NCBI GenBank assembly: GCA_903864515.1
Contig: CAIPFZ010000027.1
Coordinates: 1 to 44,644 of the forward strand
Reading direction: 5' to 3'
Length of the DNA stretch: 44,644 nt
Source of the DNA: an uncultured bacterium
GTDB lineage: Bacteria > Patescibacteriota > Minisyncoccia > Phycocordibacterales > CAIZLB01
The notes under the pieces were generated by a model. That model saw only the letters and a program-made list of their open reading frames with translations. It was not told the DNA's origin and did no database searches. Positions 11,890 to 15,961 of the stretch are shown here, one piece after another; position 1 is the stretch's first letter, and each line of letters opens with the position of its first letter. Position numbers and translations under genes: made by a program.

Positions 11890-12999
11890 TTATTTAAGTT
11901 CTACAGGTATTCCAGACTTAATGATCATTGTCTTAAAATCTTTTGTGAAAGCCCCCTTTCCATCGGAATTCAAAATACCAGATTGTCCGTCATATGTCTT
12001 AATGTTATTAAGATATTTTTGCACAACGTTTGTGTCCAGAGACTTTGTTTCCTTTATACCTTTAGCAATCAACATAACAGCATCGTAAGCTGAATCAGAT
12101 CCAATTTCCACTTCTCTATTGTAAATACTTTTATATTTTGCTGAGAAATCTGCTTTAGGAGTAAGGGCGGTTAAAAACTCCCAACCGTTACATGTTCCCT
12201 CACAATTCTTTATAACTGTATTATCTAGTGTTATGGAATATGTTGGCATCTTAATCCCCAAATCTCTCATTTGTTTTCCATATACAGAGGTTAATCCGTA
12301 ACCATCTGAAGTAACAACAATTGCTTGCAGATCTTTTATTTGCTTAAGTTTCAATAAATCTGTTCTTACGTCTCTCTGATCTGTTGTTGGTTCGTAAACA
12401 AAACTCACAACACCACCCAATTTTTCAAATCTTTCCTTGAAAGCCATAGTCTGCGCCTTACACCAAACTTCATTAGCTCCAAGTATCGCTACGTTTTTAA
12501 CACCTTTAGCAAGCACGTAATCAGCAAGCTTTGCAGAAAGAATGTAATCATGAGGCCATGTGTTGAATATGAATTTACTTGTTTCGTTAAAGTTAGCATT
12601 TCCAAGACTTGGAGAAATGACGATTTCATTAGTAATTAAATCCTTTATAGGATCGCCGTTCTTTGACCAAGATGGACCAACGATAAATTTAACACCATCT
12701 GTTTGAGTTAGCTTTCTAAACGCACCAACTGTTTTAGCTGGGTCTCCTGCATCATCTTCATGTATGGCAACAACCTTCTTACCAAGTATTCCACCTTGAT
12801 CGTTTATTTCTTTGATTGCCAAATCCATTCCATTTCTAGCAGCTTCTCCCCATGAAGCACCGTCCCCTGATTCAATCAAGATGCTACCAATTTTTATTTC
12901 ATTAATTGCAGATAAATTGTTTTGATTCTTGTTACTGACCCAAACTCCCAAGACAATCAAAATGATTATCACTATTCCAATTATTATTTTTTTATTCAT
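11890..12999 (-). CDS. Liv-type substrate-binding protein E, membrane anchored
   Basis: 369 aa from the ATG at 12999. The frame stays open upstream into the first hammerhead repeat, but MNKK plus hydrophobic anchor is the paralogue pattern. The core begins IKIGSILIESGDGASWGEA and carries the canonical AIKEINDQGGILGKKV motif of branched-chain amino acid receptors; FIVGPSWSKNGDPI is a ligand-pocket strand. Its TrmB partner is 1.7 kb away at 14738 because a three-gene insertion lies between. A TTGACA at 13039-13044, in the end of the ribozyme repeat, could be its -35 box, but no good -10 box follows. Confidence 0.92.
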   Translation of the reverse strand: MNKKIIIGIVIIILIVLGVWVSNKNQNNLSAINEIKIGSILIESGDGASWGEAARNGMDLAIKEINDQGGILGKKVVAIHEDDAGDPAKTVGAFRKLTQTDGVKFIVGPSWSKNGDPIKDLITNEIVISPSLGNANFNETSKFIFNTWPHDYILSAKLADYVLAKGVKNVAILGANEVWCKAQTMAFKERFEKLGGVVSFVYEPTTDQRDVRTDLLKLKQIKDLQAIVVTSDGYGLTSVYGKQMRDLGIKMPTYSITLDNTVIKNCEGTCNGWEFLTALTPKADFSAKYKSIYNREVEIGSDSAYDAVMLIAKGIKETKSLDTNVVQKYLNNIKTYDGQSGILNSDGKGAFTKDFKTMIIKSGIPVELK

Positions 13000-13040: not shown

Positions 13041-13127
13041 TCAATTTGTTTCGTCCTTTTAGACTCATCAGGCAAGATACACATCTTGCGACAGTGGAAG
13101 TTTTAGGAGAAACTTCCAAACCGATTT
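13041..13127 (-). ncRNA. hammerhead ribozyme, copy 1
   Basis: Minus-strand order: hairpin GGAAGUUU/AAACUUCC, ACUGUC cleavage site, closed stem I (GCAAGAU, loop GUGU, AUCUUGC), core CUGAUGA, closed stem II (GUCU, AAAA, GGAC), core GAAA, then ACA pairing back to UGU. This is type III topology (stem III open). All invariant core bases are present, including the G10.1-C11.1 and A15.1-U16.1 pairs. Predicted cut between 13090 and 13089. Outer stem III extends as UCGGUUU with AAAUUGA. It lies between the gene at 13135 and SBP E. Confidence 0.92.
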
Positions 13128-13134
13128 GAAAAAT

Positions 13135-13623
13135 CTAGTGCCAACAATACTTAGAAGATGAATATCCCCCGATTTCACCAAATACTTCACAAGGCTTGGA
13201 CTTCTTTCCAATCATCAAAGTAAGAATTATCGGATTTTCTTCACCTCCAGTAAAAACTTGTTTGAGAATACTTTTCCAGATAGCAACATCTTCCTTTGTG
13301 CCGTAAAAAATCTTACCGATATCTCCGACACTCACGCATTCCTTTCCATGGCCAAACCCTCCACTTACGATAATGGTTGGAACCATCCAGCTCCAACACA
13401 GGCAAGCTACCTTGAACCCAGAATGTTTTTCCTCCATATTCATGTCAGAAATGACAAAATCAAATTTTGGACAATCATTTCCGACCTCATTGAAGAAATC
13501 AGCTGCGGAATTAAAAGTTGATATGTTGGCGTTTGGTAGAAATTCATTAATAGCAATAACTGCTGCTTTGAGATTTTCTGGAGTATCATCAACTATCGCA
13601 ATATTTTTGATATTGTTTTTCAT
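13135..13623 (-). CDS. receiver-domain-like cassette protein
   Basis: 162 aa. The N-terminal 110 residues resemble a CheY-like receiver: IAIVDDTPENLKAAV carries the acidic pair, FDFVISDMNMEE the putative phospho-acceptor Asp (about residue 60), and VPTIIVSGG the conserved Ser/Thr strand. The C-terminal 50 residues do not fit the fold, and no output domain is present, so it may be a degenerate or single-domain receiver. Third gene of the hammerhead array. Its leader holds GTAGAAAG upstream of the ATG. GC is higher than in host genes. Confidence 0.6.
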   Translation of the reverse strand: MKNNIKNIAIVDDTPENLKAAVIAINEFLPNANISTFNSAADFFNEVGNDCPKFDFVISDMNMEEKHSGFKVACLCWSWMVPTIIVSGGFGHGKECVSVGDIGKIFYGTKEDVAIWKSILKQVFTGGEENPIILTLMIGKKSKPCEVFGEIGGYSSSKYCWH

Positions 13624-13657
13624 TTTTCTATACTTTCTACTTTTGTTTTAAAGATCT

Positions 13658-13740
13658 GGTTTCTGTTTCGTCCTTTTGGACTCATCAGGCAAGATACATA
13701 TCTTGCGACAGTGGAAGTTTTAGGAGAAACTTCCAAACCG
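13658..13740 (-). ncRNA. hammerhead ribozyme, copy 2
   Basis: Same architecture as the copy at 13041. Stem I is GCAAGAU, AUGU, AUCUUGC; stem II is perfectly paired (GUCC, AAAA, GGAC); core CUGAUGA and GAAA are intact. Stem III is ACAG with CUGU, continued as AAACC with GGUUU beyond the side hairpin, giving a bent stem with a three-way junction. Predicted cut after GUC, between 13707 and 13706. It separates the genes at 13762-14217 and 13135-13623. Confidence 0.93.
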
Positions 13741-13761
13741 ATTACAGTAGATACCAGTTAA

Positions 13762-14217
13762 TCATTGAAGCCTGCGAATAAACGCAAACTCAATACCGCT
13801 ACCGTATGGGACATTCATTGCGTAATCGAAACCATGGAAATGGTGAACCGCAAGAAAGACGTTACTTACAGACCTTTCTTGTCCAGGCTGTTGTGCCCTT
13901 CTAGACTCAGATGCAAAGACAAAACATTCTTCATTTCCCAACCCCTCCTGAATGACGTAATGAAATGGCAAGTAAGATGGACAAAGATCAAAGCCATCAG
14001 CAAGCGCTAAGTCAAAGAACTCCTTGCAAGGCACTACACCGGTGAGTTTGTATTTACAGCACCTCAACCCAACAAGCTCAACGGTTTCAATCTGAGGAAC
14101 TTGTCCAGGTAAAAAATGTCTTGCAATGTTTGGATATTTATTAACAGCCTTTTCTTGAAGTTGACGTCCGCTAATTCCACCAATTTGAAGACGTGGAACA
14201 ATTATTCTTTGGCACAT
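13762..14217 (-). CDS. hypothetical cassette protein
   Basis: 151 aa, soluble, six cysteines (CQR, RCCKY, VPCKEF, DLCPSY, EECFVF). The stretch LADGFDLCPSYLPFHYVIQ followed by ECFVFASES and a C-terminal GIEFAFIRRLQ recalls short uncharacterised proteins I associate with CPR genomes, but I cannot name a family. Second gene of the array, with a hammerhead on each side, so self-cleavage would release it as a separate mRNA. GC is well above the flanking binding-protein genes, and the leader has GTAGAGAAA rather than a full Shine-Dalgarno site. Confidence 0.6.
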   Translation of the reverse strand: MCQRIIVPRLQIGGISGRQLQEKAVNKYPNIARHFLPGQVPQIETVELVGLRCCKYKLTGVVPCKEFFDLALADGFDLCPSYLPFHYVIQEGLGNEECFVFASESRRAQQPGQERSVSNVFLAVHHFHGFDYAMNVPYGSGIEFAFIRRLQ

Positions 14218-14248
14218 AATTTTTCTCTACTTGTTTTAATGACCATGT

Positions 14249-14330
14249 TTCTGTTTCGTCTTTTCAGACTCATCAGGCAAGATACACATCTTGCAACAGT
14301 GGAAGTTTTAGGAGAAACTTCCAAACCGAG
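14249..14330 (-). ncRNA. hammerhead ribozyme, copy 3
   Basis: Same fold, with two informative changes. Stem II is GUCU, GAAA, AGAC, so its last pair is U-A where copy 2 has C-G and copy 1 U-G, a compensatory series. The cleavage triplet is GUU instead of GUC, which still obeys the NUH rule. Predicted cut between 14295 and 14294. Inner stem III is ACAG with CUGU. It follows the gene at 14337-14549. Confidence 0.92.
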
Positions 14331-14336
14331 TGTCAA

Positions 14337-14549
14337 TCAATAATCATCATCATAGTTAGGCATACGTCCGCCATTGAACCTTACATCCCTAACAATTGAT
14401 TCCATACCAGGGCCAATCTTTTTTGCCTCTTCCATTGCCTGACAGTAAAGATCCCCTGCAAGCCGATGATCATCAATTCGGCGGTCTTCTTTGAGACATT
14501 GCTTCATCAAATCATCAATCTTCTTCAGTTTTTCTCTTATATTACTCAT
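14337..14549 (-). CDS. small hypothetical cassette protein
   Basis: 70 aa, mostly helical and charged (REKLKKIDDLMKQCLKEDRR at residues 5-24), ending in an acidic YDDDY tail. No family recognised. First gene of the hammerhead array; its leader carries a real Shine-Dalgarno site (AGAAAGGA about 7 nt before the ATG), unlike most genes in the window. No hammerhead lies upstream, so the transcript probably starts just before its leader, in the AT-rich stretch at about 14590-14620. Confidence 0.55.
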   Translation of the reverse strand: MSNIREKLKKIDDLMKQCLKEDRRIDDHRLAGDLYCQAMEEAKKIGPGMESIVRDVRFNGGRMPNYDDDY

Positions 14550-14737: not shown

Positions 14738-15457
14738 ATGAATTATCCAATATTAAAAAACCTTGGCTTAGACCAAAATGAAGAAAAGACTTATTTGTTT
14801 TTGCTAGAAAACGGAGCTTCCTCCCCTACTGACATTGAAAAGAAGATAGATATTCACAGACCAATAGTTTATAAATCACTTGAGTCCTTAAAGAATAAAA
14901 ATCTAGTAACTATTTCCCCTAAAGGAAAAAGAACTCTTTACATTGCTGAGTCACCAGAAAAGCTGGAATATATTTTTAGAGAATTAGAAAAAAACTTCTT
15001 TAATGATGTAGAAGATTTACATAACCTATATGAATTAGGACAAAAGAATAAACCAAAAATTACCTACAGTGAAGGAAAACAAGCTATTCAGGATTCATAT
15101 ATGGATATACCAAACACATTAGATAAAGATGCGGAGTATTATAGGTACATGTCTGTGCAAAATTCCAATCGTGAGAAGTTTCTTCCAAAAGGATACAGAG
15201 AATTACGAGACAAGAAGGGTCTTGAGAGTATGATTATCACAAACAAGTCTTCAAAGAAGGACAAGGTAAGGCTTGGTTCTAGAGTTAAGGTATTACCAGA
15301 TTCTTGTGGACTATTTGAATATAACATTGGGCAAGTGGTATATGGAGACAAGGTAGCGATAGTTGATTATGATTCTCAATCCGTAATCACAATCAATCAC
15401 CCTAAATTTGCAGAATTTCAAAAGAAGCTTTTTAAATTGTTATTTGAGAAGATCTAA
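14738..15457 (+). CDS. TrmB-family transcriptional regulator (presumed partner of SBP E)
   Basis: 239 aa from the ATG at 14738; an upstream in-frame ATG at 14687 lies inside the promoter and is rejected. Winged HTH at residues 3-70 (LKNLGLDQNEEKTYLFLL, recognition helix IHRPIVYKSLESLKNKNL), then KPKITYSEGKQAIQDSY opening the effector domain. By orientation it is the partner of SBP E, from which the hammerhead array separates it. Its stop codon abuts the stop of the convergent membrane protein. Confidence 0.86.
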   Translation: MNYPILKNLGLDQNEEKTYLFLLENGASSPTDIEKKIDIHRPIVYKSLESLKNKNLVTISPKGKRTLYIAESPEKLEYIFRELEKNFFNDVEDLHNLYELGQKNKPKITYSEGKQAIQDSYMDIPNTLDKDAEYYRYMSVQNSNREKFLPKGYRELRDKKGLESMIITNKSSKKDKVRLGSRVKVLPDSCGLFEYNIGQVVYGDKVAIVDYDSQSVITINHPKFAEFQKKLFKLLFEKI

Positions 15458-15961
15458 TTACTTCAACACCAATGCAATAGAGGATGCTATAATCCCTAAA
15501 ACTAAAATATTTCTGGCTAATAAAAATAGTTTTCTCTTTGGAGTGTAATAAAATTTATATATCCCAAAAATATAACTAGCTACATTTTTTACCGTCTTAT
15601 CTCTATCCTTAAGAGTTTCCAACAGCTTATTTGCATACTCTTCTGAAGAATCAAAATTTACAATGTTACCGTTAGATATTAGGTTATGCTCTTTATTTTT
15701 ATTGTTTCTTGGTGGATATATAGAATAGATACTCACTATCGCAGAAAGACCAGCAAAAAAAGCCAGTATACCAAATACAGTATTATCGCCAGAACTTTTA
15801 ATTTGAGTTGCTGAAAATGCAAATATAGCCATGCTTATACCAATTAATATATTAGCCTGACTATCAAAATGCCTGACGGATTGAACACTTTTATTCATTA
15901 TAGCCGCAGTCATTCTAATAATTGAACTATTATCCATTTCATTTGAATTATTATTTTCCAT
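15458..15961 (-). CDS. PycTM/DUF5706-like two-helix membrane protein
   Basis: 167 aa from the ATG at 15961. Pattern: a soluble helix, SVRHFDSQANILIGISMAIF starting the first membrane segment (about residues 37-55), a second segment (60-80) ending IYPPR, a soluble middle with FDSSEEYANKLLETLKDRD, and a last hydrophobic segment (145-165) after KRKLFLLARN. This is the order seen in Pycsar effector (PycTM, DUF5706) proteins, which cause membrane damage in anti-phage signalling when paired with a cyclase. No cyclase is in the window, so a defence role is only a possibility. Convergent with TrmB E. Confidence 0.55.
   Translation of the reverse strand: MENNNSNEMDNSSIIRMTAAIMNKSVQSVRHFDSQANILIGISMAIFAFSATQIKSSGDNTVFGILAFFAGLSAIVSIYSIYPPRNNKNKEHNLISNGNIVNFDSSEEYANKLLETLKDRDKTVKNVASYIFGIYKFYYTPKRKLFLLARNILVLGIIASSIALVLK

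Follow-up and report, generated by a model that had tools for sequence, protein, structure and literature searches.

Type III hammerhead ribozymes at the gene borders of a TrmB-linked gene array in Patescibacteriota, with candidate boxA-like signals after the predicted cut sites

Introduction

Type III hammerhead ribozymes arranged in tandem on one strand leave 5'-OH and 2',3'-cyclic phosphate ends, and to our knowledge the role of bacterial hammerheads has been unsettled ever since many of them came to light in 2011. The closest described systems are clusters of hammerheads flanking single genes in prophages, for which the accessible portion of Perreault et al. 2011 (PMC3088659) suggests processing into single-gene mRNAs; three of these tandem arrangements cleave in vitro, and the triple of A. 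tumefaciens does so also in E. coli. A preliminary description of the DNA analyzed here had held that no bacterial operon of such a kind was known, a claim that these prophage gene–hammerhead–gene arrays, as presented in that portion of the paper, contradict. A second relevant system is the boxA element of rRNA leaders, which is bound by NusB/NusE and has the published gamma-proteobacterial consensus GYTCTTTAANA (PMC5725501).

Here we analyze a stretch of 44,644 nucleotides from an uncultured member of the Patescibacteriota (contig CAIPFZ010000027.1; hereafter the window), together with the genomes of its relatives.

Results

Three type III hammerheads in the window

The minus strand of the window harbors three repeats that had been read beforehand as type III hammerheads, an assignment borne out by RF00008 E-values of 3.4e-7 to 4e-4 and by covariation in relatives; the cut positions proposed for them are correct by inspection. 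The elements are as follows, with R1 denoting the covariance model introduced below.

13046 to 13094, minus strand: hammerhead ribozyme 1, type III (RF00008 30.6 bits; R1 72.9 bits)
13663 to 13711, minus strand: hammerhead ribozyme 2, type III (RF00008 41.5 bits; R1 76.2 bits)
14251 to 14299, minus strand: hammerhead ribozyme 3, type III (RF00008 38 bits; R1 72 bits)
13090/13089, minus strand: cleavage site of hammerhead 1 (inspection)
13707/13706, minus strand: cleavage site of hammerhead 2 (inspection)
14295/14294, minus strand: cleavage site of hammerhead 3, GUU (inspection)
13096 to 13117, minus strand: hairpin GGAAGUUU-CUCCUA-AAACUUCC, directly 5' of hammerhead 1 (fold and conservation, three copies)
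13713 to 13734, minus strand: hairpin directly 5' of hammerhead 2 (fold and conservation, three copies)
14301 to 14322, minus strand: hairpin directly 5' of hammerhead 3 (fold and conservation, three copies)

By inspection, each copy reads, in type III order, as an NUH triplet, a closed stem I of 7 to 8 bp, CUGAUGAG, a closed stem II of 4 bp capped by AAAA or GAAA, then GAAA, and a stem III that is open and, as in most homologues, only 3 to 4 bp long. The outermost stem III pair of hammerhead 1 is a C.A mismatch (CTG/CAA), and this copy may therefore be a weaker ribozyme. A search with RF00008, the check suggested in the preliminary description, called no window repeat at the gathering threshold of 48.5 bits, the best scoring 41.5 bits (E 3.4e-7); by E-value, however, RF00008 is the sole good Rfam family for these repeats (3.4e-7, 3.4e-6 and 4e-4). 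Scores are reduced because stem III is short, and the gathering cut-off is a library threshold, not a chemical requirement. The loose motif CTGATGA-N-GAAA occurs seven times in the window, two sites being double-counted via alternative ends, as compared with 1.5 expected (0/100 shuffles). The repeats are mutually 79 to 88% alike over 108 nt and 94 to 98% alike over 80 to 91 nt, and no further hammerhead copy was found in the window's own genome (934 kb, 77 contigs). We regard the three repeats as confirmed at the sequence level as real type III hammerheads, kept as RNA structures and predicted to cleave themselves. The hairpins lying 5' of all three copies support the earlier proposal that the upstream RNA would be closed by a hairpin; the proposal of structured 5' ends is supported as well.

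Array genes and exchange of a single unit

The genes of the array and its surroundings are listed in the order of transcription of the array, followed by the divergent neighbor.

14337 to 14549, minus strand: first array gene, 70 aa, with a 72-aa homologue in the congener G002
13762 to 14217, minus strand: second array gene, 151 aa, which with one hammerhead forms the unit missing from G002
13135 to 13623, minus strand: third array gene, 162 aa, with weak receiver-domain similarity (PF00072, E 4e-4, under the cut-off)
11890 to 12999, minus strand: Peripla_BP_6 substrate-binding protein, 369 aa, after hammerhead 1 (85% identical in G002)
14738 to 15457, plus strand: TrmB-family regulator, divergent, adjoining the array (PF01978, E 9e-15; 89% identical in G002)

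The positions of genes and ribozyme cores agree with the serial gene–ribozyme–gene layout on one strand that had been proposed. The further statement that the ribozymes lie between small genes holds for the array genes of 70, 151 and 162 aa, but not for the 369-aa gene that follows copy 1; this substrate-binding protein gene is probably the far flank of the array, and copy 1 may mark the array end rather than a junction of two cassette genes. No function could be assigned to the 151-aa and 70-aa genes with phage, defence or Pfam profiles, profile searches matched none of the three array genes to phage families, and no promoter of the window array was identified with confidence.

The window and G002 harbor three and two hammerheads, respectively, between flanking genes that are 89% (TrmB) and 85% (substrate-binding protein) identical, and they differ by exactly one gene-plus-hammerhead unit of 588 nt, consisting of the 151-aa gene and one hammerhead. 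The array genes common to both are merely 47 to 54% identical; for the receiver-like gene we obtained a dN of 0.44 and a dS of 2.0, and the sequences indicate that array genes evolve under purifying selection. Homologues of this 162-aa gene are found within arrays of G002 and G029, and array gene families recur in arrays of other families within the order. Next to the TrmB gene, positions 15458 to 15961 (minus strand) encode a small membrane protein with similarity to PycTM, a Pycsar effector (PADLOC, E 1.9e-9). The window as a whole (1 to 44644) contains an expansion of seven TrmB-family regulators (home-made profile) and several substrate-binding-protein genes.

Hammerheads in related genomes

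DNA and Rfam searches recovered diverged homologues from other genomes of the window's genus, family and order, and model R1 was built from the three window copies and 17 others. Within the order, 87 of 397 genomes contain matches to R1, with a maximum of 13 per genome, as do 39 of 380 genomes in a phylum sample; occurrence among relatives is patchy. The genomes of the order measure 0.4 to 1.7 Mb, with long 16S matches in some. Neither this wide occurrence in the order nor the TrmB neighbor and the boxA-like element after the ribozymes had figured in the preliminary description.

Among the 20 sequences, 99.3% of cells are standard pairs, with 73 double changes and with double changes at 12 of 14 pairs; none of 500 shuffles did as well, and pairing falls to 35 to 44% when the strands are slid. 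A further 47 homologues gave 99.4% paired cells and 193 double-change cells in an alignment that was fitted to the model and leans its way. We then define anatomy on 61 loci with a total of 116 hammerheads. In 116/116 the cut is preceded by C, A or U and never by G, and stem III has mostly 3 to 5 bp. Stem III is preceded, at a distance of 0 to 3 nt, by a hairpin of 6 bp or more in 84/116 (15 expected from shuffles), and the 5' flank could pair with the hairpin loop as an H-type pseudoknot of at least four Watson–Crick pairs in 33/100, as compared with 12.7 when permuted (maximum 22). Reading frames of 45 aa or longer begin within 160 nt of 92/116 hammerheads (median 41 nt), which is weak evidence because the opposite strand gives 72/116.

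The flanks of several relatives' arrays read as core genes. In L074 (genome G001), a hammerhead pair and a TrmB gene stand between genes reading as EF-G and as EF-Tu/ribosomal proteins S10, L3 and L4, a core chromosomal site. Elsewhere, a LOOT RNA (RF03000, 71 bits) lies at L133:8081-8217 (plus strand), about 1.5 kb from a hammerhead and on the opposite strand.

At least 99 type III hammerheads are found in phage sequences (IMG/VR); among the matches listed, 74/99 harbor the 5' hairpin and 5/99 a boxA-like site. In viral contigs L159–L238 and following, again among the matches listed, the adjacent 5' hairpin is often GTGTCTTCAAAGACAC and a start codon lies about 20 to 40 nt on. A hairpin and hammerhead before a gene is thus a form common in phages. 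A 16-base pattern gave five matches in viral contigs, consistent with chance, and blastn against phage genomes found nothing.

A boxA-like element after the ribozymes

A boxA-like motif, G(T/A)TCTTTGAAA, searched as [GA][ATG]TC[TA]TT, lies no more than 18 nt after 70 of the 116 hammerheads, as compared with 2.9 expected and with 3 in a control stretch 40 nt further on; the strict motif is found 70 times in sense and 11 times in antisense in array regions. The family consensus, GTTCTTTGAAA, is one base off the gamma-proteobacterial consensus GYTCTTTAANA. The window harbors one good and one weak site of this kind, the remaining hammerhead being followed by none.

13646 to 13656, minus strand: boxA-like GATCTTTAAAA after hammerhead 2 (sequence; family-wide enrichment)
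14234 to 14244, minus strand: weak boxA-like GGTCATTAAAA after hammerhead 3 (sequence)

NusB is encoded in 15/15 genomes checked, the window's own included. That the motif is boxA in this group is a good hypothesis, and its function is putative; we leave it at that grade because an exact GTTCTTTGAAA occurs at a plausible distance in just 1 of the 8 rRNA leaders examined. Upstream of the array, boxA directly follows a good promoter-like site at only 3/61 loci and at none in two controls. A candidate reading in which the terminal hammerhead of an array lacks a following boxA was dropped, the motif being not significantly rarer there (Fisher p 0.14).

In 21/68 cases the RNA after the boxA-like site is strongly folded, often into a long hairpin that is nearly perfect, and the window is without such a stretch; these folded leaders are perhaps RNase III substrates. 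They are found in L064, L066, L070, L077, L136, L138 and others, several of them being near-perfect hairpins of about 18 to 24 bp that begin 5 to 15 nt after boxA. In G049 (L144:4200-8200), the gene starts bear GTTCTTTGAAA, at a spacing of about 600 nt, together with a structured leader that recurs (CGTACGGCATCGGGTCGGTGATGG...); this array has terminator-like hairpins at some borders and just one hammerhead.

Association with TrmB and exchange with twister-P1

A TrmB-family gene is found no more than 3 kb from 35 of the 61 loci, typically in divergent or like orientation 0.4 to 1.5 kb ahead of the first hammerhead, divergence being frequent; 26 loci have none nearby, contig ends accounting for some. 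Array-bearing genomes mostly encode 1 to 11 TrmB copies (median about 2, none in one case), and in G287, G358, G081 and G091 the single copy lies close to the hammerhead locus. The TrmB neighbor in the window would mean less when taken alone, since its own genome harbors 19 TrmB genes.

Of the order's 397 genomes, 4 contain a twister-P1 ribozyme. Three of these ribozymes are strong (E 4e-11 to 2e-13; G220, G029 and G250) and lie among hammerheads or about 0.5 kb from them on the same strand, and the fourth is weak and shares its contig and strand with a hammerhead 5 kb away; all four score under the Rfam cut-off for the family. The strong examples are located as follows.

L070:5803-5869: twister-P1 inside a hammerhead array
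L061:7533-7601: twister-P1 inside a hammerhead array
G250:C36:3120-3190: twister-P1 about 0.5 kb from a hammerhead, same strand

These positions indicate that twister can replace the hammerhead at array borders. Since twister-P1 stands among hammerheads, cleavage itself appears to be the trait that is kept, and this is the best evidence that we have for it.

Discussion

As judged from sequence, hammerheads mark gene borders both in the window and in many relatives' arrays, with boxA-like sites and TrmB strongly associated, and cleavage at these borders is well supported. We consider it likely that the window harbors a TrmB-linked array of small accessory genes, made as one transcript and cut at the gene borders by self-cleaving ribozymes. 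Each border element would read, in order, a 3' hairpin (an H-type pseudoknot in some relatives), a type III hammerhead, a boxA-like signal, a leader and a start codon. The RNA would be cut at each border during its synthesis, such that the upstream message would end in the hairpin and a cyclic phosphate, and the downstream message would start with a 5'-OH at the stem I and stem II hairpins of the ribozyme. Because cleavage would free an upstream antitermination signal from the polymerase, a fresh boxA after the cut would be needed to sustain transcription; boxA after each cut might thus reload RNA polymerase with NusB/S10, a "cut and re-arm" step that we put forward tentatively, at somewhat under even chances. 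The full proposal, a widespread bacterial system in which hammerhead or twister ribozymes cut a TrmB-controlled transcript at every border, boxA reloads antitermination and separate mRNAs arise from exchangeable units, has by our estimate similar or slightly lower odds.

Other readings of the repeats deserve consideration. They could be mainly DNA recombination sites, each gene and repeat forming an integron-like mobile cassette in which the hammerhead is incidental or ancestral, as might be suggested by the single 588-nt unit that distinguishes the window from G002 between flanking genes of 85 to 89% identity, by the likeness of the window repeats (79 to 88% over 108 nt, 94 to 98% over 80 to 91 nt), and by gene families that recur in arrays across several families of the order. 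We think this unlikely: compensatory changes keep the structure while the sequence diverges, G is never found before the cut site, twister can substitute for the hammerhead, and inspection of the aligned repeats revealed no attC core pair (RYYYAAC/GTTRRRY) at their ends. It is improbable too that the hammerheads are remnants of phages or other mobile elements that lack a present host role. Their patchy occurrence would fit such an origin, as would the abundance of type III hammerheads on phage contigs, where the 5' hairpin is shared (74/99 among the matches listed) and a start codon comes soon after, but the stems and the cut site have been preserved, boxA-like sites follow 70/116 hammerheads here and 5/99 of the phage hammerheads among the matches listed, the TrmB association is strong, and genes reading as EF-G and EF-Tu/ribosomal protein genes flank at least one array.

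Each ribozyme might instead be an on/off control of the downstream gene, with cleavage lowering or altering translation and no processing of borders. The glmS ribozyme is a known precedent for such gene control, and the ribozymes here lie about 40 nt before the start codon; yet no conserved ligand-binding pocket was seen, the upstream stems vary freely, and the hairpin that would serve the upstream message is conserved, which together make this reading improbable to a similar degree. Least probable, and by our estimate very much so, are paired hammerheads that release unit-length gene RNAs for ligation into circles (e.g., by RtcB), as circular mRNAs or an RNA-borne mobile element. By established chemistry, 5'-OH and 2',3'-cyclic phosphate are the ends required for ligation. 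The 3' hairpin and the boxA-like site after the cut suit a linear mRNA better, however, no reverse transcriptase stood out in those arrays that were inspected, and for tandem bacterial arrays neither spliced nor circular products were detectable, according to the accessible portion of Perreault et al. 2011 (PMC3088659).

Should border processing by self-cleaving ribozymes be correct, bacteria with highly reduced genomes would have a nuclease-free way of dividing an operon into individual mRNAs. The role of these hammerheads becomes testable with more than 100 examples whose anatomy is fixed, and with a regulator gene, a likely transcription signal and the natural replacement of one ribozyme class by another: does cutting define the messages, and must the polymerase be re-armed after every cut? 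The tandem layout was already known, and what appears to be new is the setting, namely, the array with a boxA-like site, TrmB and twister exchange. In open papers we found no literature on hammerheads with boxA, TrmB or Patescibacteria, and the accessible portion of Perreault et al. 2011 (PMC3088659) makes no mention of a boxA link.

Comparison with known systems

The prophage clusters in that portion of the paper (A. tumefaciens ardA triple, Clostridium scindens and Azorhizobium caulinodans; PMC3088659) likewise have several hammerheads flanking single genes on one strand, but are of mixed types and lie in prophages, whereas those described here are uniformly type III, stand beside TrmB, are followed by a boxA-like site and belong to a small-genome order. 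With Hammerhead_3 (RF00008) they share the core, stems, part order and cleavage triplet, and differ in a short stem III (3 to 4 bp), an added 5' hairpin and scores under the gathering cut-off. In rRNA operons, boxA is likewise repeated along the transcript beside RNA-processing sites (before 16S and 23S, with NusB/S10 antitermination; PMC5725501), whereas here the genes are protein-coding and ribozymes replace processing enzymes. Finally, integron cassettes are also small genes of no assigned function, each with a repeated structured element and gained or lost as single units; in contrast, no attC core was seen in the arrays described here, and what is conserved is an RNA structure and its cut site, followed on the same strand by a leader with a boxA-like site.
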